This document shows, one piece after another, positions 586 through 26,543 of a stretch of 64,000 bases of DNA. Positions within the stretch are counted from its first letter, which is position 1. Each line of letters begins with the position of its first letter. The notes beneath the pieces were generated by a model. It did not search any database. It saw only the letters and a list, made by a program, of their open reading frames with translations, and had not been told where the DNA came from. Source of the DNA: Marisa cornuarietis. Taxonomy: Eukaryota; Mollusca; Gastropoda; Architaenioglossa; Ampullariidae. The translations under genes and the position numbers were made by a program. The stretch covers positions 8,183,501-8,247,500 of the forward strand of contig SMMW01000585.1 in assembly GCA_004794655.1 (NCBI GenBank). Direction: 5' to 3'.

Positions 586-2211
586 TCAATCGGCTGAAAC
601 CCGCTCCAGGCGACCCCATGTCCAGCCCTTTCCTTTCATCTCCCTTTCCACTGTTCTTCTCCAGGTTTCCTTTGGGCGGCCTCGTTTTCTTCGGTCGTCT
701 GGAGTCCATCGTAGGGCGATTCTGGAGAGGTCTGCTGTCTGCTGGCGAAGCACATGTCCAATCCATCGCCAACGCCTTCGTTGAACCAGCGTGGTGATGG
801 ATTCGGTTTCAGTTCTTCGGTGGATTTCTTCATTGGTGATGGTGTTTGGCCAAAAGATGTTAAGTATGCGCCTGAGGCATCTGTTTTGGAAAACGTCAAG
901 CCTGTTACCGATGTTTTTGGTCATCTTCCATGATTCTGATCGATAAAGGAGGATGCTGATTACATTCGACTTGAAGATTCTCAGTTTGGTCTTCTGGCTG
1001 ATGTTTTTTGCCTTCCATGTGCTCCTGAGTGAGGCGAAGGCCTGGCTGGCTTTTGCCAGTCGGGCTCGAATCTCCACCTCCGCATCCCAGGTGTTTGAAA
1101 TCTTGGACCCAAGATAGGTAAAACTGTTAACTTCCTCAATCTCTTCTCCATTTAGTTTGATGTTTTCTTGGACTCTGGCGTTCACTCTCATACTTTTCGT
1201 TTTCTTTGCGCTGACCTTCAAGCCAAGGTTTCCAGCTGTTTCTGAGAAGGCATTTGTTTTCTCCTGCATGTCTTGGTGGCGGTGTGACAACATGGCAATG
1301 TCATCGGCAAAGTCCAAGTCTTCCAGCATTGTTGTTGCTGTCATAGTCATGGTCCATTTGATCCCTCTCCTCTCTCTGTCGGTGGAATTCTTCATAATCC
1401 AGTCCATGGCCAGGATGAAGAGGAACGGCGACAGAATGCAGCCCTGCTTCACCCCAGTACTGACGTTGAAGGGGGCTGTGAGCTCCGTGTCACAGACCAC
1501 CTGAGATTTGAAGTCGCTGTACAGCATTGCAACGACCTGGACAAGTTTCGCTGGGACTCCATAATGCCTCAGGATCTTCCATAAGGACTCGCGGTGGATG
1601 CTGTCAAAAGCCTTCTCCAGGTCGATGAAGTTGATGTACAGCGGTGCATTCCACTCATTGCTCTGCTCCAGAATCTGACGCAGAGTGAAAATGAGTTCAG
1701 ATCAGGATCGCCCAGGGCGAAATCCTGCTTGCTGGGGCCAGAGGTCTTTCTCAACGGTTGCCGTCAGTCTTGACAAAACAATCTTGCTGAAGACCTTGCT
1801 GGTAATGGAAAGAAGTGTTATACCCCTCCACTTATTGCAGTCTCCAAGATCTCCTTTCTTGGGTAACTTGAAGATGAGCCCTGTCTTCCACGCATCGGGG
1901 ATCTGTCCTGATTCCCAAACTTGCCTGAAGATTTCAGTCAACATGGGAGCTGTTACATTCACATCTGCTTTCAACATCTCTGCTGTTATTCCATCTGCCC
2001 CTGGTGCTTTGCCGCTTTTCATTGCCTTGAGTGCTGCTGTCACTTCTTCCAGGTTTGGCGGGTCTGTGCAGATGTCAAGGTCTGTATCTGCTGGCTGGAT
2101 GTCTACGAGCTGAGGGGGGTTTGGTCTGTTTAGAACCGACTCTAAATGCTCCCTCCAGCGCTGTAGTTTTTCTGCCTCTCCCTGGACAACATTTCCATTC
2201 ATGTTTTTCAC
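586..2211 (-). pseudogene. LINE reverse transcriptase and C-terminal region, one internal stop
   Basis: One frame runs from 2211 to 586 with a recognisable in-frame stop (TGA, 1702-1704) just after the FRPGRS motif. Motifs in order are an ADGITAEML block, KWRGITLLS, QQAGFRPGRS, INFIDLEKAFDSI (motif A with catalytic Asp), GVKQGCILSP (motif B), LDFADDIAML (motif C, FADD), and a C-terminal stretch with SESW, RRWRWIGHVLR and RKRGRPKETWRR. This order fits the RTE-like superclade of non-LTR elements. Apart from the stop, the RT core is well preserved, so the insertion is not very old. Confidence 0.9.
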
Positions 2212-2472
2212 TGGTACTTCACTGTTTTTGAACCTGTTGTTCAGCTGTTTATTGATTTTATACAGTGTCTTCAGGTCATTTTTTCATGCTGCTTCTTCTG
2301 CTTCATCTGCCAGTTTCTCTATGTAGTCCCTTTTGTCGGTTTTGATCATCCTCTTTACCTCTTTGTTTATTTCTGTATATTTTTGTCTGTGTTGTTCTTT
2401 CAGACGTTCAGATCTGGTGTTGTTGATTTTCTGCTTGGTTGACTTTCTCTCTTCTATCCTTTTCCATGTCGC

Positions 2473-3598
2473 TTATCTGATCCACTGTTCTTTCTTTTTT
2501 CGTTGGAAGCCCAGTATTTTCTCTCCTGTTTCCTGTAAGACTCGATTGAAGTCCTCTAAGGTCATCTCCTGTTGGTCCTCTAGTGCCTGGAACCTGTTCT
2601 TTACTTCCACTACAAAGGCACATTTGGTGGCTGGGTCCTTCAGTCTGCCGGAGTCCACTCTCTGCTGACGTGCCTGTTTTCCTCGCGATCGACGTAGCTT
2701 CAGAGAAACTGCGGCTATCACAAGAGTGTGGTCACTGGCAACGTCTGCTCGCCTCTGTAGGCTCTGACATCTTGAAGTGAGCTCCTCCATCTTCGGTTGA
2801 TGATGACATGGTCTATCTGGTTCTTTGTGATCCCGTCTGGTGATGTCCACGTTGCCTTGTGGATGTCTTTGTGTTGGAAGAGTGTGCCTCCAATCAGTAG
2901 ATTGTTTTCTTCACAAAAGTCTGCCAGTCTCTCTCCGTTGTCATTGATGGTTCCAATTCCATGCTTGCCCATGATATGCTCCCTGCAGGTATTGTCACTT
3001 CCCCACCTTGGCATTGAGACCGCCGGTGATGAGCAACATATCATGGGCTCGGACGCTCTCCATGGCTGCCTGGAGCTGATCGTAAAAAAGCATCCTTGTC
3101 TTCTGCCTCGGAGTCTTCTGTTGGTGCATAGCAAACTAGCACTGTCAGCTTGGTGTACTTTGAATGGAATCTTGCTCTCAGAAGCCTGAGTCCATAAGGC
3201 TTCTATTGCACCAGTGTCTTTTCAGTTTTCCTATTGAGGAGTAGTGCTTCTCCTTCAGAGTGTTGGTCGTCTGATCTTCCTGAGAACAGGATAGTATGCC
3301 CTGATGCTAGTCTCCTTTTTCCCGTGCTGGTCCATCTGACCTCGCTGACTCCCAGGATGTCCAAGTTGTACTTGTCAAACTCCTTGACTAGTTGGGGCAA
3401 CCTGCCAGTCTGATACAAGGTCTGGACGTTCCAGCACCCCACCCTCAACTTCTGCTTCGGCTTCAGTAAATCCACCATCGGGGCGCCAGCTCCCTCTCGG
3501 GTTTGACTGTCGTCCGTCATAAGTCCAGTTACCTGGTGTGTTTCATTACCTTTGCCATCCGTAGTGAGTACTCTGGTTTTAGTTTCTGTAACATTCAT
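2473..3598 (-). pseudogene. LINE endonuclease domain, frameshifted
   Basis: The start codon is at 3598. The amino-terminal frame shows the core motifs LRVGCWNVQTL and GVSEVRW, the latter with the catalytic glutamate, typical of EEP-type retrotransposon endonucleases. The middle part continues in a second frame (2718-3134). The end, including the DVASDH motif (the SDH signature), is in a third frame (2473-2850). Two frame changes and a terminal stop break the domain. The third frame is the same one used by the reverse transcriptase downstream, so the ancestral element probably had a single long ORF. Confidence 0.85.
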
Positions 3599-3803: not shown

Positions 3804-6800
3804 GAAAAAGAGCGCAGACGAAGAGAGGTTGAGTTTGCACCTAGACGCATGTCCAGTCGACTACTTTCAAAGAAAAAAGGCAGAGAAGAAGCTGTAAGCA
3901 TTAATAAGAACAGTTTGGGGGTTTGATTTTTTTTTTTTTTTTTTTTGCATTGTAAGCATGCAGCACAAATATCAGTGTTATTACATGAAATTCTGTTCAG
4001 CAAGATAGTTTTGTTTTTAAATATGTCTAATCTGGTTCACAGTTACAGAATATTTGAAGGTTTTAACAAACACACATACATCAAATATAGAAATTGTACC
4101 TGCTGTCTAAAAAAAAATACTATTTTGATTTTATTTCCTCAGTGATGTGGCAATATGCCAGAAGAGGAAATAGTAACACCTCATACCTTAAAAATACAAA
4201 ATCTTCCATTTGCACCATGGCATAGTCAGCAGAGTATATGTATTACAGTGCAAGAAAAAAAATTGGAGGGAAAGAAGTCAAGTATACACAGATACATGTA
4301 CTTTGTTTGGATTTTGTTTTTTAATAAGAATATTGTATTGCAAACATTTTCATCTGTAGGAAAAGATCCTGCAGGAAGCAGCTGTTGAAGAGGAGCGCCA
4401 AAGACAGCTGGAGGAAGAGGATAGGAAAAGGCGTATGGAGGAAGAAAAACTGGAAGAGCAGCGTCGTCTGCAGGAAGAGCGTGAACGTGCTCGCGAAGGT
4501 TTTTAATTTCTTGATTTCTTATCTATAATTTCAATTATTACTTCAAATATTTAAATAAAAAAGAGATGTGTGATGGCGGTGTCATTGAATGGTCTACGTG
4601 CATGTTTTAGCAAACAAGTCTTTTGTTCCTCTCCTGGTTTGAAAAACTTTGCTGATTATTTGTGGGAATAAAGGGGTAGGATGGGGGAGAGTGGAAGGGC
4701 TGCAGACAGAGTAGCTGAGCATCTCATTTAAAGACAACAGTTTTAGCTTGTTTGAGATACAAGGATGAAATATTAAGCGAATAACTTTGTTTTCAAAATT
4801 ACTAGAGCTATAAGAGATAGATGGAAAAACAGCTATAAGAAATGTATAAAATAAGCATAAATCAACTGTTTCCACCACAATCCTGATGGAGGTGTACTTT
4901 TTCGTGAATCTAAAAGGAATGAGATTTATCAGATGGACTTTTACACAAGGATTACACAGTCTGTTCTAGCAGGCAATAGTAATAATAGGTATAGCACATT
5001 TCTCCACCATAGGCAAGTTCAGTACACTTTACACTTCATTGTGACCCCAAACTGGCAGCCTGTGTACATTGCACAGATGTGGTGTGACATGATTGGCCTT
5101 CAACTTAAGGAATATAATGTGAACAGCATTATTCTGAGTTCTCAAGATTGTCAAGTAGCCAGTCAGAGCGATTAACAAACAGAGAGTAGTAATAGTCAGA
5201 CATCAAGTAGAAATGAACATTGCTCTTAAAGATGAAAATCAACTATAATATTGCCTTTAATAGGTATCAGGCTCTGCCGTTTGCCATCTGGCACATTATA
5301 CTGCTAGCCATTGCCATTTTTATTTTGTGCAGAAAGGAGGGTTGTGATGGGAAATTTCTAAGCTACCTATAGAAGTTGCTTTCTTTATAGTCTGTTGGAG
5401 ATAGTTATATTTCAGAATGCTTTAGCAGAGGTAATTCTTGGTTGCGGCCTTGCAGGATTCCTGCAAAATTTCGCTGAGGGGCACATAGTTTGAAAGTCAG
5501 CGTGACCAAGCGCAAAAGTACAGTGGCCGGTGCACATTTGAACACCCGATGCAGCACTTAAAAAATAATTGTCATTCCTCGTGCTGGTTTGAAAACGACC
5601 CTCTGGAATTGATGCTAATGATTGGATAGTTTACAAACTGACCAGTTGTTATCCATCTGATCTAACATGCTCCAAATTTTGCGCCAGGAGGTAAATTGGT
5701 GACGTGCCCTCATCAAAAACATTTGAAAAGGAATTGATCCAAGAGTATCAGAAGCAATTGAGTCGAAAATGATGTGAAAGCAACTGTCAACTCTGTTTGA
5801 CTTTTCGTTCATGACCAGAAAAGCAGAAGATGGCCAGAAAGCAGAAATTGATAAGGACAGGAAGAAGCAGAGTGTGCCACACAAATTGTTGGAACTGAAA
5901 ATGAAGACAATCGAAAAATGGCGAAATAGACAATCAAACTGAGACAGAGACCACAAGTCGCATCCAGAGAACCTTTCACTGTGAATGGCTGAAGAAATGG
6001 CTTTGGCTAATGAATGAGGACAACGGCATGAGATGTAAAGTGTGCCTAAAGCACAATAAGAATAACACGTTTACAAGCCCCCGTTGTGTTAATTACCGAA
6101 CGAGCATGCTACACAGACTTCTGACCACAGGCACTCTTTGGAACCAGAAATTCTAAAGAAAGATTTCAGCCAGGTAAACTATTTTTCAATCCTAATTTAT
6201 TTCCATCCTCATGGCCTTTTTGGAACGTACGCCGGTGGTATTGTATAACTCCTAAAAATAACATGTTGCAAACTTTACTTATAGGTGTGCATAGAAAATT
6301 GTATTGTATCAACATTTTGAGGATGATTTCTTCCTAGTATTAAAGATGCAAAAAAGTAATGTGACTATGTATGTTGCAATTATTAGAAAACCATTATTAG
6401 TAAGATTAATTTTTTTCGTTCCCTTTTTGCTAGCTTCACTTGTGTTGTGATTTCAAGCAATTAAAATATAAAATAAAGCTTTGACACCAAGACCGTGTGT
6501 CAAGCGGCAATCAGACTTAAAGACTTCCACACAAGCATGTAAACTGTAAAAGAACTTTATAGGACAAATTCTAGTTTTATAAAGTTAAAAGGAATGCCTT
6601 TGCACAAATAATTTCTGTAAATTCATTCATGCATAAAAAATGTGATGTAGAATTGTGATATTAGTAAAGTGGACCTTCATCATTTTTTTATTTTCTAATT
6701 ATTCGAGGCTGCATCAACTGCTGTAAACAGGGATCTGACAAATACAGATGCCAGTATTCTTGCTGCCCTGCATACTGTCTATTGGATGGCAAAGGAAGAC

Positions 6801-9800
6801 CTGCTAATTTCAAAATTGTCAGAGTTAATTGAATTTCAGAAACAGCACGGATGTGAAAACATTTCATCAGCATGAACTGAAGGAGAAACTGGTAAAGAAA
6901 AAGAATGTTGCTGGGGACACAGTGGAATTTAAGGGCAGCATCACAGGACGTGGAAGCTGTTGGGGTTGCTTTTGCGACAGTCTGTGCAAGAACATTAATG
7001 ACAGGTTCCCAAAAGATGGAGGTGATGTTAGCTCTGCATTTTTAGTACTTTCCATGTGCCCCATCTCTTTCCTGTCTGCAGAAGACACAACAACCTGTGG
7101 AGACAAAGAATTAAGTATCTTGACAGATTTCTTTGGAAAGCCAGCGCAAGTGGGCAGCAAATTCAGTAAAATCTTGCTTGACAAAGCAGCATGTTTAGAG
7201 GACTGGATTGTGGCCAAAGAAACTAATACAGAATGCATATTGGAGATTCCATGAGCTGCTTAAACTGTTATTTGACTTTCACAGGGATTCATTTCCCAAT
7301 TTGCTGTTTCTTTGAAAGCTGTGCCTCCTTATGTCATACCACAGTGCAGACGGTGAGAAAGGGCTTAAGCCATCAAAACCTAATAGTCTTCTTGTAGAAG
7401 TTGTCTAGAGGAGAAACATTTAAATGTTCTCATGAGAATAAAATATGAAAAGGAATCACTTGCTGACCATAACTTCAGTGATGCTGTGATGTTGTGGGGG
7501 GAAACCCCAGAAGGCTGTGTAACGGACACAAGAAGGATAGTGAAGAACATTTCAAGTGACAAGATACAGCCACTGCATTGATGAGACATGTGAAAAGTGT
7601 CTAAACATTAGTTCATAGCCCAATGAGATGGACACAAAGACTAATTGGTTTGCAAATTTAGGATGCTCTGACCACACTAATGATGAAAGATGTTTTATCA
7701 ATGTAAAAAAAAAAGATATCTGTGTAATTAATCGTCAGTTTCTTGTGATTATTAAAGTATTTTGTTGTATTCTGTTGCATACCAAATATTTATTGGAAAA
7801 GCAGTGAAAAAGTGTTTGTTTCAAGGGGCCCTTTGTTTCATTTGAAAGGCCTGATTTTTCCCTTTGAGAGGGCCCCTCTTTTTAATTCCTAGAATTACCT
7901 CTGCTTTAGTGAACATTATTATTGTTTTTTCAAATATCTACATGTTCATAAGATTTAAGTTAAAAATATAATTTTCACATATATATATATATACACGTCT
8001 AGACCATAAATGCGTGAAAGAGTTAAAGGCATTAAAGTAGTATGTGCAAGTGCTGATGTGGATGGGTGGTGTGGTTGTTTTTACAATTTTTGGTCTTCAT
8101 TTTATAGAGGCCTTTGAGACATCATTGGAAAGTTCTAGAATTTTTTTTTTTTAATTTTTTTATTTATTTAATTTTTGCAGAGCGTGCAAAGCGTGTAATG
8201 CTGCGAGAAGAGAGAGCTCGACTTATTGCAGAAGGAAAAGAAATACCCCCAGAACTTATGAATGGGTCAAAACCACTTGACGGGTATGAAATTTGGATGG
8301 ATCTTTTGACTTTATAAAAATTTCTGTTGATACAAAGGGGACAGTCCACATCAAAATCGTCAGAAAACATGCTTTAGTATTTTTTCATTTTCACAGAAAA
8401 AAACTCTTGCCTCTTGCAAAGTGTATCTACATGCCAGATTTGAAGCATTTCTGTTAAGCATTAGTCAAGATATATCAGTGTCTCCTTATTAAGTTGATAT
8501 AATAAGTGACACGAAGTTCTTTCCTTTTTTTCTTACAGAGTAAAAAAGGCAGGATTTGTAATGGCTTTTATAATAACTGTGACTTTGTTCTTTTTGCACA
8601 AATAATTGAAATTGTTTGCCTGGTGGCTAATCAGTTCAATGTCAAAACAATGAAAAAGACTGCCAATGGTCAACATGATTTAAGATTGTCTCTCTTTATG
8701 GAATATTCGAGGATTTTGGAAGCCTCTGTTGGTAGGTGGTGAATTTTAACTCTCTTGGTTTGAAAAGCCACGATCGTGGCTATGCCTGGTAGCACCGGCA
8801 AGGCGCTTTTCATTACTTTTTATTGCAAAGTTCAAGTTTTCTCTTTTCCAAAAATGTGTAGGTTTCTTGGTCTAACGTTTATCTCAGAGCAGCAATAATA
8901 AAAAAACAAACTTCACCCACTGTCATCTTTGCAGTCTTCAGTTATATGCCAGTCATTGTAATGTTACATTTTTATGTTGAACCAAGAGGGTTAAGATTAG
9001 CTCAGAATGGGCATGCATGCAGACACCCATACCTGCAACAATCAATCTTCTTCAGTGTGACCGTCTCTGGGACTTGGACAAGTCTGTCATGTTTTTTTCA
9101 ATAATTTATTTTTTGAATTAAAATTGGCTAGTAGAAATTATGATATATTACTTTCCAATGCTTTAAAACACTGAAAAACAACAAGACGAGCATGCTGTTT
9201 ACCAGTTGACAAGTCAGGGCTAAAGGTGTCAATAAATTCAGTGGGACAGAACAAGAAAGTTGAAAAGGAAACCATCTACAGTTAACCCTAATCCTTTGAT
9301 GGCTAAACTTCCCACATAAAGCCAAGTGTTCTTGTTGCAGTCAAGGGCCAGATGATCAAGTCATGGAAGAAGAAGTGGTGGCCAAGTTACACAAAGGTGA
9401 GAGGCTAAATTGAAAGGAATTTAATAAAAATAATTGCAAGATTTGTATAGCACATGCTTACACTTGTAAGGAGCATGCTTTTAGCACAAGAACAAGAATG
9501 AGACATGGACAACATATGAGGGACAGAAGAATAAACAAGCAACATATGAATGACAGAAGGATGAACAACAGTACTGATGACGAATAAAAGACAAAGAGGA
9601 AGCTAGTAACAAGGACTAGGAGTATTGTGATTTTGCAAAGGAAGATGAGTAAGAAAGTAGCAATAAGCCGAATAGGAGAGAAGGGTGTAAAAAAGAACAA
9701 ATGTGTGGACTGTTGTGAGGACTAATGCTTAAGAAATAAGTGCATTTTCAGTGCATGTTTCAAGGATTTAATTGTGGGTAGGTGGCTGTCATGGACACTC

Positions 9801-12800
9801 GCGTACACGTAGACGCTTGGACATTTGCCCGTTCTTTTCTTCACAAAACAACTCTGCCTCTTTTGCGGGCCTGTATACATTTAATGATATTAACTAAATA
9901 TATGCTACAATGACAGTAGTGGATATGGAAAGAGAGAGTTCCATTGTTTTGCTGCACAGTAACTAAAAATGCTGTGACCATATGTTGTTGTCAGGGTTTA
10001 TGCAGGGTCAGGATTGTTTGTGGATTGTGTGTGCTTTTTGTCATTGCTTTTGTCAGACTAAGCTTCTCTAAAGCGTCATGGAGTGGGTTTTTTTTTTGTT
10101 TGTTTGTTTCAGGAATGCTTGATATCTGTAGTGTCATATAAGAGGCATAAGGTTCTTATTCATTTGGCATGAGATTGCTTTTGTTTGTTGAATGATTCGC
10201 TCTTGTTTCCAGTTATTGCTGCTTGTATGAGGCATGATGAGGCTTGGCCCTTTGTGGAACCAGTGGAGGAAGCATATGCACCTGGCTATTTTGATGTAGT
10301 GAAGGTTTGTTTGTTTATTATCTTGTGCTTTATTGTGCTACGATGTGTGCTTCATCCTGATGCAAAACATCCTGAGTTAGATTTACAGAGAAGAATATTT
10401 TAGCGATGTCAAGTACAGTTACTGGTTATCTTTCCTTTTTCTTAATTTTTATATCCCATGTGCCAAATAAGAAAGAGCTGTCTGTAGGAGGAGCAACCTA
10501 TTTTTTTTCTCTGATGACCTGCCTCTTCTTCTTTGTGCTGTCCAGACTCCTATGAATCTAACAGAGATGGAAAACAAACTTAGTTCTGGCCGATACACAA
10601 GCAAAGAACAGCTTTCTACAGACATGGACCTTCTTGTGGCTAACTGTGAAGCTTACAATGGTGTAGACAGTGGTGAGCAAACCTTTGTATTCTTTTGTTT
10701 AGATAAGTTATGAATGAAAAGGGGGGAAATTATGTTCACATTTGACATATTTGACTGTTGTTTTTTTTTTAAACCTGTGTTACTTTTTAACAATTGACTG
10801 CTGGAAGATGTAATAAATAAGAAAAGTAACATGAAAATGAAGTCCCCCAGTTTCTATCATTGTTTGAACCAATTAAAGTAACAGTTTATAAAATAAGACT
10901 ACAGCATGCATAACTGCATGCAATACTGATGTGTTGTTATTGTAATGTCAAGTGAGCATTCACAAAGCCACCTGATTCAGTGAGAGCCATAATTCTCTCA
11001 CACCAGAACAAAACTATTCACTCACATACCCTGCACAAAGACAAGAAGTCATATATATCACACAACTGATCAAGCATCTCACATTGTTTTTGGCCATTCA
11101 CAAGAAAAAGGGGATGAACAATTTACACATTGGTTGAGCAGCAATCTGCACTAGGTTATCTGCCTTAAACAGATGTTTATACATAATTATACATTGAGTT
11201 TTCTTAATTTTTAACTGTAAAGTGCAAAAGATGCACACAATGCTTTTGTGTTAGTCTAACTGAATTTTGTATATTGTCATAAAATCAGATGTACACTTTG
11301 TCTCATTTCAGATTTTACACTTATGGCTAAAAACTTGCGTAAAGCATTTGAGAGATCTATGCGACGCTTGTTCCCTATTATGAGGGCCCGCTGTCGAGAC
11401 GACGATGAGGAATATGTCATCAGTGAAAAGCAAACAGAAAAAATTGTTCCGAAAAAATTTCGAGTCAGGCGTGAAGCCAGTAGACGTGCTCAGGATTACA
11501 TAGGCGAAGCCCTTTCTGATGCTGTGAGGAATTTTTTGTTTGTTTGTTTGTTTGTTTTGTTTTTTTTTGGTGGGGGGCTTGCTTTTTTTTTTTTTTTTTA
11601 GTACATCGCTAAGCTGTGAGCACTTGGATGAGTGCATTCACTGTATATGTTTGCACGCACTTCCTCCATTCCTGTAAGTTAATAAACTCATTAATCAGTG
11701 AGTTAATCAGGAAAGTTAAAATGAAATGGTAATCTATATGCAGTGTTTTATACTAAGTATAGAAATCTGTTGTTCAGGCACACACTTGTATTGGAACAGT
11801 GATACAGTAGTACTTTCAGAATATACTTTACCATTTATTAAAAGACTTAATTCACAAACTGCATTATGCTCATGCTTATCAATAATTTGCATCAGTTATT
11901 TTGTTTGTGTGTGCTGTTGGCTTGTATTTCGTGCTGCTTTTGAAACCTCTTACATTTGTAATGCAGAATTCTGATGACAGTCTCTCCCACTTGGAAACAA
12001 CCACTATTACATGGAGACCTGCAGGCTCAAATCGCACTTACACTCGAGTACAGTTCAAGGGGTATCCTGATTCAGGGTATATCACGATTCAACCAGCACC
12101 AAAAACTAGCACTGCGGCCATTCCTTCTTCACGTGGTACCACTGTGTTGGACTCTATGTTGCAATCTTCCAGACGTCAGGTGACCATCAGCACACCCCCT
12201 ACACGCTGCACATATGCCTCCAGTCATGGACAGGTAATCGGGCCATGCCTCAGGTCCCCCTCTAGTCAGAGCCTGCGTGACATGCCTCCTGTTCTAACAC
12301 CAGAAACCTCTGTTTCCAAGGACACCACATCTGCAGAGGGCAGTGAAGTTGCACCTCCACCAACTTGGAGTTACAGGAGGGATTTAAACACTGATGGAAC
12401 AGAGAGCGACAAAGAGCCACCTAAGCTGCGGCGTATGGTGCCCAGTCCCAGTCTGCTGAAAGATCAAGAACATCAAAAAAAGACAGTGGGTGAGACAGCA
12501 GGATTTGTGTCGGTGAACCACCCTAAACAGCTGTTGCAGCCAAATCAGCAAGCCATCAATCAGTCTCAAACTGTCCTGTCCAGCAAGGGGGGTGTAACCC
12601 ATGTGACCTTGGGCATGCATCATAGTGGCAGCACTGTGACTCCTGCACAGCCTGCGCCAGCAGCACCAGGTGCTGCAGCTGGAGGTGCACAGGCCCGTGT
12701 GGTACACATCTCACGAGAGGACTACCAACGTCTCCTGGCACAGAACAAGATCCAGGTGTTAAGACCTGGGCCAGGAGGACAGGGCCAGATCATTCGACTG

Positions 12801-14867
12801 CAGGCAGGCCTTCAGCTGATCACTCAGAGACCTAGATTACCAGTTGCTGGTGCACCACCCAGCATTGCTGCAAGGCCAGCAGCGCCCGCAACTAGTGCTG
12901 ATGCAGAAGGATCAGTGACTGTGATATCTGCTGTCTCACCAACGACTGGAGCATCTGATCCTTTAAGAACTGTGTTGCCATCGCAGACTTCAGCGCTGCA
13001 AAATGCTGTGACCTCCAGTTCTGCTGCCACGACAATAGCCAGTTGCACTTTGCAGACCCCAGTGGCAACTGTTATCACCACTGCACATACCAGTATGCCA
13101 GTGACTACTGTTGCTGGTCTGTCCTCTTCATCATTATCTGATCGTCTATGGGGTTCATCTGCTACAGCAGCTTGTGTGTCTCAAAAAAATAAGCCACTGC
13201 CAGCCTCATTTCTACCATGTGTAAAAACCACTAAGGGATTGCATGGCAGTAGCCCTTCCACCGGTGAAAGGACAGATCTGTTGGGTGCTTTGCAGCCTTC
13301 TTCACCTACAGCTGGTGAGGGTGAATCACCAAGAGATTCTCAGTCTGTGAGTCTGCAGACAGTGTCAGATTCAAGACAGACATCTTTTGATGTGAACTAT
13401 AAGACTGATAACGCTGAAAATAGGAAAACTGCTAAGGAATCTGAATTGGTAGGTGAGAAGTCTGAAAACAGCCAAATCAAGAAGTGTGACCCTGATATAC
13501 AAATGGGGGAATTTACTGATTCCCAGACAAAAGACGTGTGCAGAAACATTCAACAACTGAGAGAGAGTGGTGCTAGTAGAACTGGTGAGGAAGTTCATAA
13601 GACAGTCAAGAATACAGATGTACCAAAGATGGCTATCTCATTTAAAGAGCTTGCAAAACGAAAGGAAGAATTGTCAGATCAAGAGGTGCCTGTCTCAAAA
13701 CTAGCAAAGATATCTCATTTGTCCGATCCAGTTTCAGCATCAAACCAAGAGTCGGAAACTGCTATTTCCTCTAATCAAGCACCGATAAGTTGTTTGGCAG
13801 AGGAGGAAGTGACAGCAAAAAGTAAAAATAAGAAAGAGCAGGATGATCACAAGACACAACAGCACAAAACATCTCCATCCTCATCTGAACCGTCTGATAA
13901 AAACTCTAGACCAAACATAAAGAAGTTCTCTCTCTCTGGGCTGTCATCACAATTAGCTATGGCGATGGCTGAAAAACTCAAACGATCTTCGCAGTCTTCG
14001 TCTGATCAGCCTGTTCCAGACATGAAGACCTCACCTTCACAAAAGGTTGCCTCGAGCATGGAGACCGAACTCCTTCCTCCCCTTCTGAATCAAGAAGTTG
14101 CTGCTGAGAAAGGCCCAACCCAGACTCGTCTGACTGCTTTTGAAAGTAAGCACAGAGCAAATGAAGAGACAAAGAGGTCAGAGGCAGATGTGGATTTGCT
14201 GGGACCACCTAACCTGGAGCCAGTGCAAGACAGTGCCATGTCTGGAGCTTCCACAGCTCTACTCTTGGACTCTGTTACAAAAGACTGTGGACTGTTTGAG
14301 TCATTGGGTAATTCATTGGTAGCTAGTGATGTCCTACAGTCTCCACAGAAAGCGTCAGAGGTGCCCTCCAGGTGTACCATTCAGGGAACAGGCATGAAGA
14401 ACAGATCACCTTTGAAACACCCAGATGATAATATATTCCAGAGAATGATGGACTTGAGCAACATTGAGATAAAGGAAGATGCTTTGTTGCTGCCAGGCAC
14501 CACAAGTGACATCAAGGTGGGGATTTTCTTCTCTCCTTCACCTCTGCCTTTCTCTTTCTCTCACTTTCAGAAATGAAGGAGAAATTCATTTGTTCCTGTC
14601 TTCATAGCTGGGACCTACCACTACAGTTAGAGACTGCTTCTTTACAAGGCTCATAGCTTACAGCAAACGCTGTTTCAAAATCATATTTCTTTGTTAAATC
14701 ACTACAAAGAAATCGCATTCCATTGTAGCATGATCGGGATTTTTTTAGCGAACAAAATATGACTCACAAATGTTTGATGTGTAGAGTGCATCTGTTTTTT
14801 AGATGCATACTAATATTCATTTTCATTTTTATTTCAGGGAGCTGGAAATGATGATAAAATGATGTGA
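3804..14867 (+). CDS. CECR2: CECR2-like bromodomain chromatin-remodelling protein, 5' partial
   Basis: Coding exons: 3804-3893, 4360-4498, 8181-8283, 9341-9396, 10213-10304, 10546-10672, 11312-11523, 11967-14516 and 14838-14867 (stop TGA). All have AG/GT borders, phases match throughout, and they sum to 3399 nt (1132 aa plus stop). The first exons give a Glu/Arg/Lys-rich coiled segment. The bromodomain spans about fragment residues 127-222, with the WPF shelf, EPV..AYAP, a PM dipeptide and NCEAYNG carrying the acetyl-lysine-binding Asn. This block matches CECR2 better than other bromodomain families I know. CECR2 is a nuclear partner of ISWI-type ATPases such as SNF2L in nucleosome remodelling. 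The rest is a Ser/Thr/Gln/Lys-rich tail in one 2550-nt exon. The N-terminal part of the protein lies upstream of the window. The orthology call rests on recognition, not on a search. Confidence 0.85.
5426..7901 (+). mobile_element. hAT-superfamily DNA transposon, defective copy 1 (2476 bp)
   Basis: The ends are inverted (CAGAGGTAATTCT at the left, AGAATTACCTC at the right) and an 8-bp direct repeat TGCTTTAG flanks the element (5418-5425 and 7902-7909), the hAT target-site length. Inside on the plus strand are remnants of a transposase: a zinc-finger-like segment (WLKKWLWLMNEDNGMRCKVC, then an NTFTSPRC-type CxxC/C block near 6000-6100), a middle segment at 6829-7254, and a degraded C-terminal hAT dimerisation region near 7255-7450. 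This resembles the ZNF862 / TTF-type zinc-finger hAT family. Several stops break it. It lies in the intron between CECR2-like exons 2 and 3 of this window, in the same orientation as the gene. Confidence 0.85.
8750..8990. mobile_element. piggyBac-like MITE, copy 1 (241 bp)
   Basis: The element starts CTCTCTTGGT, ends ACCAAGAGGG, and is flanked on both sides by TTAA (8746-8749 and 8991-8994), the target used by piggyBac-family transposases. A subterminal palindrome GCCACGATCGTGGC lies near the left end. It is closely similar over its whole length to the sequence at 62419-62658. There is no coding capacity, so it must be mobilised by an enzyme made elsewhere. It lies in an intron of the CECR2-like gene. 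Confidence 0.85.
9420..9800 (-). repeat. Dispersed SINE/LINE-tail-like repeat
   Basis: Read on the minus strand, a segment ends in TGCTATACAAATCTTGC followed by an ATT-rich stretch. The same end type (a GYRC core, then TATAAAT, then ATT/GTT-rich tail) occurs at 20180-20330, 28430-28612 and 47370-47445. Boundaries are uncertain, and I infer a tRNA-derived SINE or a LINE 3' end without being able to choose. Confidence 0.4.
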
Positions 14868-21431: not shown

Positions 21432-22607
21432 ATGCTGATAGCAATCGTGATGCTAAGGCCTCGCCTACAGCCTTCGGTATGTAACAACCGGATGAACATC
21501 CCGGTACAGTCATTGGGTTTTTCATCCTCAAACTTTCTGGACAGAAGTCTCTTCAGGAACTGCGGAGTCGCCACGAGAACGTCTGTAATCACTCAAACGG
21601 AGGCAACTGCTTCTCAGGATAGTTGGCTGCATTGTACCTATACTGTACCTCCGTGTACTCCGATCGACACCAAGAGTGACAGGACACTTCCACGCAAACT
21701 CACGCCCGATCTTCAGCAAAGACAAGGCGCGGCAGATTCCAACGGCATCGACGACGAGAAAGCGCGCTGGTCGTCGGTGATGATCAGAGAAGAAATGAAG
21801 CGAGGCAAGCCCCACCGTCCAGAGAGCCACAGAAGTACCAGCACCAACAAAACTGTTAACTTGCCGATGGTCGCCTTCTCGACGTGTGGTGCAGTGACCG
21901 GAAAGAGCAGACGAAAGAGGTCAAAGTGCGAAATGTGGACAGTGACGCAGCTTCCTGTGCTGGCTGTGGCAGGTCAGACGGAGTCTGGGAGGAACCCTAC
22001 AGTCAACGCCCTTGATTTGAGATCTATTTATGGGAAACAATCAAAGATACTGAACGTCAAACCTGGTTTGCCTGGTCAGGGCACGATCGTGCTGCCCCCT
22101 CTTACCCTCTCAAGACCCTGGGGTCAGGCTCAAGTAGGGACAGTCGACGACAGCTTGGGGAGGAAGCGACCAGTTCGGCAGGACACCAGTCGCACGCCAG
22201 CCGGAAAGAAGTGCGATTCAACGTCCTCGCCCGATGATTCTAGAACATTCGTCAACAAGAAGCGGCGCCAGCAACGTTCGGTGCTGTCGGAGGTCATCTT
22301 TGACGCTGGCGGTGGTGTGTGGGAAAACCATCGGCATCCGGTCAGCTGCCTGACCATTGACCACGCGCCCACCACAGCGCACTACTGCGACGTGCTGGGG
22401 CGGCGGTTCTGTCACCGCTGCACGGAGTGGGCGGAGAAGCTTGTGGGCCAGTCGTACGGGGCGAGGCTTGTGGGCCAGTCGCACAGACCGAGCAGGCTGA
22501 TGAGGCTGCCCAGCAAGTCACCAACTCCGACGTGGGTCACTGACCGGGAGCTTTCGTTTACAGGTGTGAGGAAGGTGATTATCACCAAGACAACGAACAT
22601 AAGGTGA
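21432..22607 (+). CDS. Unrecognised intronless ORF, Arg/Ser/Thr-rich (about 391 aa)
   Basis: The frame is open from 21372 to the stop at 22605-22607; the first in-frame ATG is at 21432, with others at 21450 and 21492. I do not recognise the protein. It is basic, with patches such as KSRRKRSK and NKKRRQQR that look like nuclear localisation signals. Near the end it has a Cys/His cluster (HYCDVLGRRFCHRC), followed by two copies of an LVGQS unit. No signal peptide or membrane segment is visible. Such a long open frame is unusual here, and GC is higher than in the flanks. An upstream exon could extend it through an acceptor near 21378. An ATTAAA at about 22870 could serve as poly(A) signal. It may be a lineage-specific gene, possibly part of a male-germline set with the H1/protamine gene 2.5 kb downstream; that link is only positional. 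Confidence 0.5.
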   Translation: MLIAIVMLRPRLQPSVCNNRMNIPVQSLGFSSSNFLDRSLFRNCGVATRTSVITQTEATASQDSWLHCTYTVPPCTPIDTKSDRTLPRKLTPDLQQRQGAADSNGIDDEKARWSSVMIREEMKRGKPHRPESHRSTSTNKTVNLPMVAFSTCGAVTGKSRRKRSKCEMWTVTQLPVLAVAGQTESGRNPTVNALDLRSIYGKQSKILNVKPGLPGQGTIVLPPLTLSRPWGQAQVGTVDDSLGRKRPVRQDTSRTPAGKKCDSTSSPDDSRTFVNKKRRQQRSVLSEVIFDAGGGVWENHRHPVSCLTIDHAPTTAHYCDVLGRRFCHRCTEWAEKLVGQSYGARLVGQSHRPSRLMRLPSKSPTPTWVTDRELSFTGVRKVIITKTTNIR

Positions 22608-25022: not shown

Positions 25023-25034
25023 AATAAAAAGGGG
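25023..25034 (+). promoter_or_regulatory. TATA-like element of the H1/protamine gene
   Basis: AATAAAAAGGGG lies 60-71 bp before the ATG. A start of transcription about 30 bp downstream would leave a 5' leader of about 40 nt, a compact arrangement like that of histone genes. No experimental start is known. Confidence 0.4.
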
Positions 25035-25093: not shown

Positions 25094-25504
25094 ATGAAAG
25101 ATAAAGCGAGCCAGGCAGACGGGATCACCGTCGAACAGCTGGTCTCGGCCATCGCCCAGCTTGGGGAGAAGGACGGCTCGACCCTGCAAGCCATAGGCAA
25201 GGTGTTGTGCCAGGAGCGCTTCCCCGTGTCGCAGGCAAGACTCAAGAGCCTCATCCTCAAGGGCGTGCGACGGGGTCAGCTCAAGCAAGGCACCAGCACC
25301 AGAGGTCGCTTTGTCCTGAAATCAGGGGGATCCCGTTCTGTCCGGGCCAGCCGTAGTGATGCCTCGACATCGAGTCGTTTCGGCCGAAGGAGGCGTCGCC
25401 GACGACGACGAAGTCGGCGAAGACGACGCAGTCGGCGAAGACGCCGGAGACGCCGGAGACGCCGAAGTCGACGAAGGCGACGAAGAAGGCGAAGGCGATA
25501 TTAG
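25094..25504 (+). CDS. Histone H1-derived protamine-like sperm nuclear basic protein
   Basis: Intronless, 136 aa. The ATG at 25094 has A at -3. Residues about 9-76 form an H1/H5-type winged helix: ITVEQLVSAIAQLGEKDGST aligns with helix 1 and the following turn of H5, and RRGQLKQGTSTRGRFVLK with the C-terminal helix and beta wing (compare LKQ..G..ASGSF.L in H5). Residues 77-97 are a Ser/Arg linker. Residues 98-136 are almost pure arginine: 9 Arg, Ser, 5 Arg, Ser, 11 Arg, Ser, 10 Arg, Tyr. This combines a linker-histone fold with a protamine tail, as in the PL-type sperm proteins of molluscs that arose from H1. Its role is predicted to be packing of sperm DNA in the spermatid nucleus. All six Arg codons are mixed in the tail. 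A histone 3' stem-loop follows 59 nt after the stop. Cleavage to release the tail is possible but cannot be seen here. Confidence 0.88.
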   Translation: MKDKASQADGITVEQLVSAIAQLGEKDGSTLQAIGKVLCQERFPVSQARLKSLILKGVRRGQLKQGTSTRGRFVLKSGGSRSVRASRSDASTSSRFGRRRRRRRRRSRRRRRSRRRRRRRRRRRSRRRRRRRRRRY

Positions 25505-25563
25505 AGCCGCTGATTAAACTGTATACCTAAATAGAGAAAAACAGGGAAAAAAAAAGCTGACAA

Positions 25564-25579: not shown

Positions 25580-26543
25580 ACTCATATTCCGGAGATTCGG
25601 TTACTAAAGACAGTAATGAAACAATCAATGCAATCAAATGTGATGATAATAAGGGAAAATGGACTTATGTCTGTTACAACTTATTAAGGCGGGTACTAAA
25701 CATACCTTAGAGCAGGAGAGAATCATGCTGCCTGACGAGAGGGGAGAACGGGGGGTGTGCCCGGGCCCGCGGCTATGAAGGGGGCCCGGCCTTGATCAGT
25801 GTATTTGTTTCTTTCTTTTCCTTTTCTTTTTCTTTTAAAGAGGTAGATGTTGAGTTTCAACGCTGTAGTATACTATTTCCGGGCATAAGATAGGCGGGCC
25901 TGGGATGGGAAGCGTAGTCAGCGGTATCTCGCTGGACAAGCTTGGAGTCGGAAGGCTGCTGGACACCGAAGATTTATCGCGCATGAACCATCTAGACTCT
26001 AGAAGGACGGTCGTGCATTGAGATATTGAGATTGCTGGTTTTATGTGCGACTAAGGGAGGGGGTGGCTGCTAGCAAATTGGAGTGAAGAGGTGTGGCCAC
26101 TCTGTGAAGCGAGAGGATGGGAGCCCGCCCCTGGGCCCTGGCGCTGCAGCCTCTAAGCAAGAGATGTTAAGGCTGCATTTTTTGTACTTAACGACACTGA
26201 AACTGTCTTCTACCGGTTCTCCATCACTAAACAAACAGCTACATTAGATCCCTGATACCATATTATCCTGTAACACTTCTGCAGCCAGCAAAATAGTACA
26301 CATTACAATGACAATGACCAACTTTATTTGTCCCAGTGGGCAATTTGAATATGGGAATGTGCTCTAGTCGCAAAAATAAAAGACGTAAGGTACGAAATAA
26401 AGTTCGTTGCAAGGTGCAGCGTTAAAAATGTCAACAGTGAAAAAATGAAAAATGAAGTGGGCAAGTGACAATCATATCAGATCAATCATATATATATATA
26501 TATATAACTTACATCAAAGATAACCATGTTTGCACCTACAGCA

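Follow-up and report, generated by a model that had tools for sequence, protein, structure and literature searches.

A 64,000-nucleotide stretch of contig SMMW01000585.1 from the caenogastropod snail Marisa cornuarietis (positions 8,183,501 to 8,247,500, forward strand; hereafter the window, to which all coordinates refer) contains a small gene in which a linker-histone domain is joined, through a serine/arginine linker, to a tail made almost entirely of arginine (Table 1). The fusion gene itself is well supported, and its product is likely a sperm nuclear basic protein that derives from H1 and belongs to the protamine-like (PL) type.

Table 1. Coordinates of the fusion gene, its parts and its flanking signals in the window.
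Feature	Position	Strand	Description
Possible TATA-like element AATAAAAAG	25023..25031	+	About 70 nt 5' of the ATG; proposed from consensus resemblance alone
Linker-histone/protamine fusion ORF	25094..25504	+	Single exon, 136 aa then TAG; from translation
Winged-helix (H1/H5 globular) domain	25130..25321	+	Residues 13-76
Ser/Arg linker	25322..25384	+	Residues 77-97; 8 Ser and 4 Arg of 21; from translation
Protamine-type tail	25385..25501	+	Residues 98-136; 35 Arg, 3 Ser, 1 Tyr; degenerate 9/18-bp array
Histone 3' stem-loop	25564..25579	+	6-bp stem, UUUC loop, then ACTCA; 59 nt past the stop
AAAGA	25606..25610	+	26 nt past the stem; sole candidate purine-rich downstream element; short motif from a pattern listing

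The open reading frame (ORF) starts at the first ATG of its open frame, with an A at -3, and is preceded by an in-frame TAA stop at position 25025, 69 nt upstream. The original prediction, a note made from the sequence without database searches, had placed an intronless gene here. The ATG, the TAG and the upstream stop confirm the ORF, and the single open frame fits an intronless gene, although an intron may still lie in the 5' untranslated region. The window contains 26 ATG-initiated ORFs with 90 codons or more, this frame among them. Its 136-residue product has a mass of 16.2 kDa and a computed charge of +45.5 at pH 7, with 45 Arg. No second copy was found in the window by tblastn with residues 1-97, the next best match having an E-value of 2.2.

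The winged-helix domain and its relatives

The N-terminal part of the protein matches the Pfam linker-histone family PF00538 over residues 16-75. The score is 26.7 bits with the full protein as query and 27.9 bits (E 2.8e-6) with residues 1-97, from which the tail is removed, and the curated cut-off of 22.4 bits is exceeded in both cases. The AlphaFold2 (AF2) model built from a 51-row alignment contains three helices and two strands, these elements spanning residues 13-75, and a single-sequence model has the same order of elements at low confidence. The predicted fold agrees with the solved H1/H5 globular domains, and when 1000 PDB chains were re-aligned to it the top three were H1 chains; the wing of the winged helix is two residues shorter. 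In local alignments against four H1/H5 domains, the observed score was reached by none of 1000 shuffles for three of them and by 4 of 1000 for H5. Ten columns, including G28, L63, Q65, G66, G71 and F73, are invariant across the protein and eight H1 proteins from the search. An H1/H5-like winged helix had been predicted at about residues 9-76, with structure prediction as a check; both the Pfam match, with and without the tail, and the AF2 fold bear it out over a slightly shorter span.

Pairwise comparison was less sensitive. With residues 1-97, BLASTP gave no match to the H5 domain and a 19-residue match to H1x (E 5e-4), and the H1/H5 similarity is therefore visible mainly through profiles and through gapped alignment with shuffles. 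NCBIfam yielded one match (E 0.23), nothing relevant, and PHROGs yielded none. A PDB sequence search with residues 1-97 returned 12 sequences, whose names all denote TAL-effector repeat proteins. In these matches no single stretch was above threshold and the repeats of the best two reached at most 10.8 bits each. They were set aside in favour of PF00538 because their summed score is inflated by repetition.

A profile search that used four H1 domains gave 1782 protein matches at E<=0.01, in a partial survey with length limits of about 53 to 170 aa, which leave out longer H1s and PLs. No comparable Arg tail was present among the 120 of these matches that were listed, in which the maximum was 9 Arg in any 39 residues (P0025). 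In the five most Arg-rich proteins surveyed, the longest Arg run was 4 and belonged to an unrelated bromodomain protein. The C-terminal domains pooled from 71 of 124 collected proteins, namely those with a GSF[KR][LM] motif and more than 40 residues after it, contain 38.1% Lys and 1.8% Arg. Two linker histones, P0029 and P0040, are labelled in a source as Pseudomonas aeruginosa and Acinetobacter baumannii; these entries are probably contamination, because P0040 closely resembles the Papilio H1 P0037.

The linker and the arginine tail

Residues 79-89 of the linker have an AF2 predicted local distance difference test (pLDDT) score below 50. The tail has exactly the composition first noted, 35 of its 39 residues being Arg, with three Ser and a final Tyr, and it contains neither Lys nor Cys; the last Lys of the protein is residue 76. 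Taken alone, the tail would have a mass of 5.9 kDa and a computed charge of +34.8 at pH 7. No stop occurs across it in any of the six frames, and its open frame alone is therefore no evidence.

All six Arg codons are used in the tail (15 CGA, 5 AGG, 5 CGC, 5 AGA, 4 CGG and 1 CGT). Its DNA is a degenerate tandem array with listed periods of 9, 18 and 27 bp among others, the 18-bp unit being present in 5.8 copies with 80% matches (25395-25498). Compared with CGA, the 39 tail codons carry 34 nucleotide differences, of which 14, 1 and 19 fall at codon positions 1, 2 and 3. If the positions changed alike, one difference or fewer at position 2 would have a P of 1.9e-5. When a pure CGA array was evolved neutrally in simulation (100,000 runs), 24 Arg were kept on average and 34 at most, against the 35 observed. 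Both calculations assume independent changes, an assumption that repeat duplication violates. The near-frozen second codon position suggests selection for Arg. The degenerate 9/18-bp array makes it most likely that a short repeat encoding Arg expanded to form the tail, with selection then acting at the protein level. The replacement of Lys by Arg, proposed in the original prediction, is unsupported, the array pointing to Arg-repeat expansion instead.

Beneath the tail, the +2 frame of the + strand stays open for 56 codons (25360-25530), and its product is rich in Lys, Thr, Ala, Ser and Pro and resembles an H1 tail. An origin of Arg tails by frameshift, in which the Lys-rich tail of an H1 comes to be read in another frame, reportedly has a precedent in tunicates. 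It was rejected here, since the likeness of the +2 frame appears to follow mainly from the use of Arg codons itself. When the Arg codons were shuffled, as many Lys or more appeared in the +2 frame with P 0.12 and no stop with P 0.22; under uniform use of Arg codons the values were 0.033 and 0.024. Thr accounts for 10 of 38 residues in the +2 frame, against 4.7% in the pooled H1 tails.

The 3' end of the gene

The stem-loop downstream of the stop codon matches the Rfam family RF00032 with 24.4 bits (E 1.7e-4 in 601 nt). It is a perfect match to GGYYYTYTYCARRRCCAC, which we take to be the consensus of the histone 3' stem-loop, and is the sole site within two mismatches in the window. Scanning both strands of 60 copies of the window simulated with a first-order Markov model gave no instance of the core pattern with its pairing. 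The folding energy is -9.3 kcal/mol (z -2.5), with 3 of 200 shuffles equally good. By pattern scan, AATAAA is absent between the stop codon and position 25800, and the variant ATTAAA lies at 25513, between the stop codon and the stem-loop. The stem-loop, missed in the original prediction, suggests that the 3' end is of the replication-dependent histone type. With this independent signal 59 nt downstream and the PF00538 match, a chance origin of the features of the ORF appears very unlikely. In Lucina pectinata, histone mRNAs have such a palindrome close to the stop codon, and the 'orphon' H1 genes of Mytilus have a polyadenylation signal (PMC6210712).

Two alternatives to a PL gene bear on these signals. 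According to the first, the locus derives from an H1 gene as a recent retrocopy or pseudogene, and its microsatellite-like tail arose by chance; the single exon, the tandem array and the lack of orthologues (none of seven candidates at E<=0.001) could be invoked for this view. The start, stop, winged-helix core and stem-loop are nevertheless all intact, and codon position 2 is near-frozen across the array, making this explanation very improbable. Canonical H1 genes are intronless, and one exon is therefore no sign of a retrocopy.

According to the second, the gene encodes a replication-dependent H1 variant, germ-line or somatic, that stays on nucleosomes and uses its Arg tail to bind linker DNA more tightly, with no histone-to-protamine exchange. 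The histone stem-loop, the lack of AATAAA up to 25800 and the H1 fold seen in the PF00538 and PDB comparisons would all fit, and the Arg enrichment of H5 is thought to tighten linker DNA binding (PMC4584325). Such a variant is unlikely here, however, given a Lys-free tail with 35 Arg in 39 residues, far from the Lys-rich composition of the pooled C-terminal domains, and a tail length equal to that of PL peptides (PMC13148410).

Comparison with protamine-like sperm proteins and surroundings of the gene

Members of the PL class are H1-derived and combine a winged helix with an Arg/Lys-rich stretch of 30-50 residues (PMC13148410). Both features are present in the snail sequence, the C-terminal stretch of 39 residues being an Arg-only extreme comparable in size to a free protamine peptide. 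The Lys-rich C-terminal domain of somatic H1s is absent, with no Lys after residue 76. Free P-type protamines are Arg-rich throughout and without a winged helix, a description that the whole protein does not fit and that the tail alone would. Proteins of the PL type, with H1 and protamine parts, have been published in bivalves, tunicates, honeybee, wasp and spiders (PMC5550673, PMC13148410, PMC11607694), and the fusion gene appears to add a member to this class. The description of the class (PMC13148410), together with a gastropod neighbour gene (below), supports the PL comparison, the gastropod source and the protamine-type tail proposed at the outset. The implied uniqueness of an H1-protamine intermediate does not hold, precursors with a winged helix and a protamine peptide having already been published in honeybee, wasp and spiders. 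What would set the snail gene apart is its Lys-free, all-Arg tail, its small size and its 3' end of the replication-dependent type. A literature search by title and abstract opening found no gastropod H1-fused protamine gene among the matches listed, which is no proof of absence, subscription journals being mostly uncovered.

The spider H1-H5-like precursor (Araneus ventricosus GBL99906 / AVEN_19411.1; Steatoda nobilis P1 and P2) also joins a winged helix to a C-terminal protamine, although it belongs to a different phylum and is likened here by description, not letter by letter (PMC11607694). Spider protamines correspond to the C-terminal part of this protein and have a mass of about 6.2-6.5 kDa, against 5.9 kDa for the snail tail; the spider winged helix is without the C-terminal hairpin (PMC11607694), a likeness to the snail wing, which is shorter by two residues. 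The hymenopteran PLs (Am-PL1, Nv-PL1 and Nv-PL2) likewise have an N-terminal winged helix and a basic PL peptide in the C-terminal half. Nv-PL1 is longer (216 aa against 136) and its basic peptide contains Arg, Lys and several Cys, whereas the snail tail has neither Lys nor Cys (PMC13148410). Bivalve PL-I (Spisula) and PL-II/PL-IV (Mytilus) are H1-derived sperm proteins of molluscs (PMC5550673), as the product of the snail gene is likely to be. PL-I proteins are rich in both Arg and Lys (PMC4584325) and Spisula PL-I exceeds 50 kDa (PMC5550673), in contrast to the small snail protein with its Lys-free tail. The PL-I of Mullus surmuletus, a vertebrate, is listed as polyA+ (PMC4584325), whereas the snail gene has a histone stem-loop and no AATAAA up to 25800. 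The free protamine of the gastropod Monodonta turbinata, compared by description only, is listed as 106 aa (PMC12216123).

As a PL protein, the fusion product would be made in the male germ line, where the winged helix would seat it on DNA in the manner of H1 and the tail, with a charge of about +35, would neutralise and condense the DNA. The three tail Ser and the linker Ser may be phosphorylation sites moderating binding during deposition; Ser phosphorylation is reported for protamines generally (PMC11607694). The short Arg-coding repeat would have expanded into the tail, whose Arg selection would keep. A cut within the linker might then free the tail, on the model of Mytilus, whose PL-II/PL-IV precursor is cleaved (PMC5550673). 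A version of the same explanation, to which we give somewhat less than an even chance, is that no cleavage takes place and the whole 16-kDa fusion persists in mature sperm as a very short PL-I. Spisula PL-I, the single PL type of mature sperm with more than 50 kDa, provides a precedent (PMC5550673). The Arg/Lys region is, however, reported to be cleaved away in some molluscs, tunicates and a liverwort (PMC13148410), and cleavage was inferred in spiders, where protamines of the size of the tail were detected, unlike the precursor (PMC11607694).

Several observations weigh against a PL sperm protein. The stem-loop scores below the RF00032 gathering score of 34, and a whole-window scan at gathering scores listed nothing. 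Such stem-loops are typical of S-phase histone mRNAs, whereas spermatids synthesise their proteins once replication is over. The 51-row AF2 alignment consists of H1s, which would bias the model toward H1, and from the sequence alone the pLDDT is 49. The copies of the repeat enter the position-2 test as if they were independent; if units encoding Arg are duplicated, Arg would persist even in the absence of selection. Helices drawn by AF2 on Arg runs are poor evidence either way; the tail (residues 92-135) is modelled as a helix with a block pLDDT of 70-87, and PL tails are described as disordered (PMC13148410). The orthologue search called for in the original prediction came back empty, seven of 5.8 billion proteins sharing words with residues 1-97 and none reaching E<=0.001.

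Published proposals place the origin of PLs in replication-independent H1.0/H5-type genes (PMC13148410). The stem-loop raises the question whether PL genes can derive from replication-dependent H1 genes. Here the protamine may have arisen directly from such a gene: the stem-loop end would have been retained, and a growing repeat of Arg codons would have taken the place of the C-terminal domain. A stepwise exchange of Lys for Arg in an H1.0/H5-type gene would then not be the route; this origin is put forward tentatively, as more doubtful than probable. If it is true, the mRNA would be non-polyadenylated and poly(A)-selected testis libraries would therefore miss such genes, so that poly(A)-based transcriptomes may have overlooked PL genes. 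The snail sequence would provide a compact H1-plus-protamine gene in gastropods, a class with a known free protamine (Monodonta turbinata), so that comparisons between orthologues that have the winged helix and those that lack it could test whether mollusc protamines originate from H1.

The fusion gene lies about 10.5 kb downstream of an ORF ending at 14576, for which three matches at E<=0.001 were obtained (8000 candidates scored). These are a protein of Littorina saxatilis (31% over 96%), a protein of Babylonia areolata with a bromodomain (43% over 29%) and a third (41% over 38%); both named species belong to the Caenogastropoda, and the ORF thus assigns the contig to this group of snails. 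With the Babylonia areolata protein, tblastn located exons at 4423 to 14459. The long C-terminal half of this bromodomain protein gene (4423-14576, + strand) is poorly conserved. At 21432-22607 (+ strand), a 391-codon ORF without a Pfam match at E 0.1 lies in a GC-richer stretch. The region 586-3598 (- strand) contains broken retrotransposon pieces, with an RVT_1 match at 589-1527 and another just under the Pfam cut-off at 1705-2202, which we read as non-LTR.
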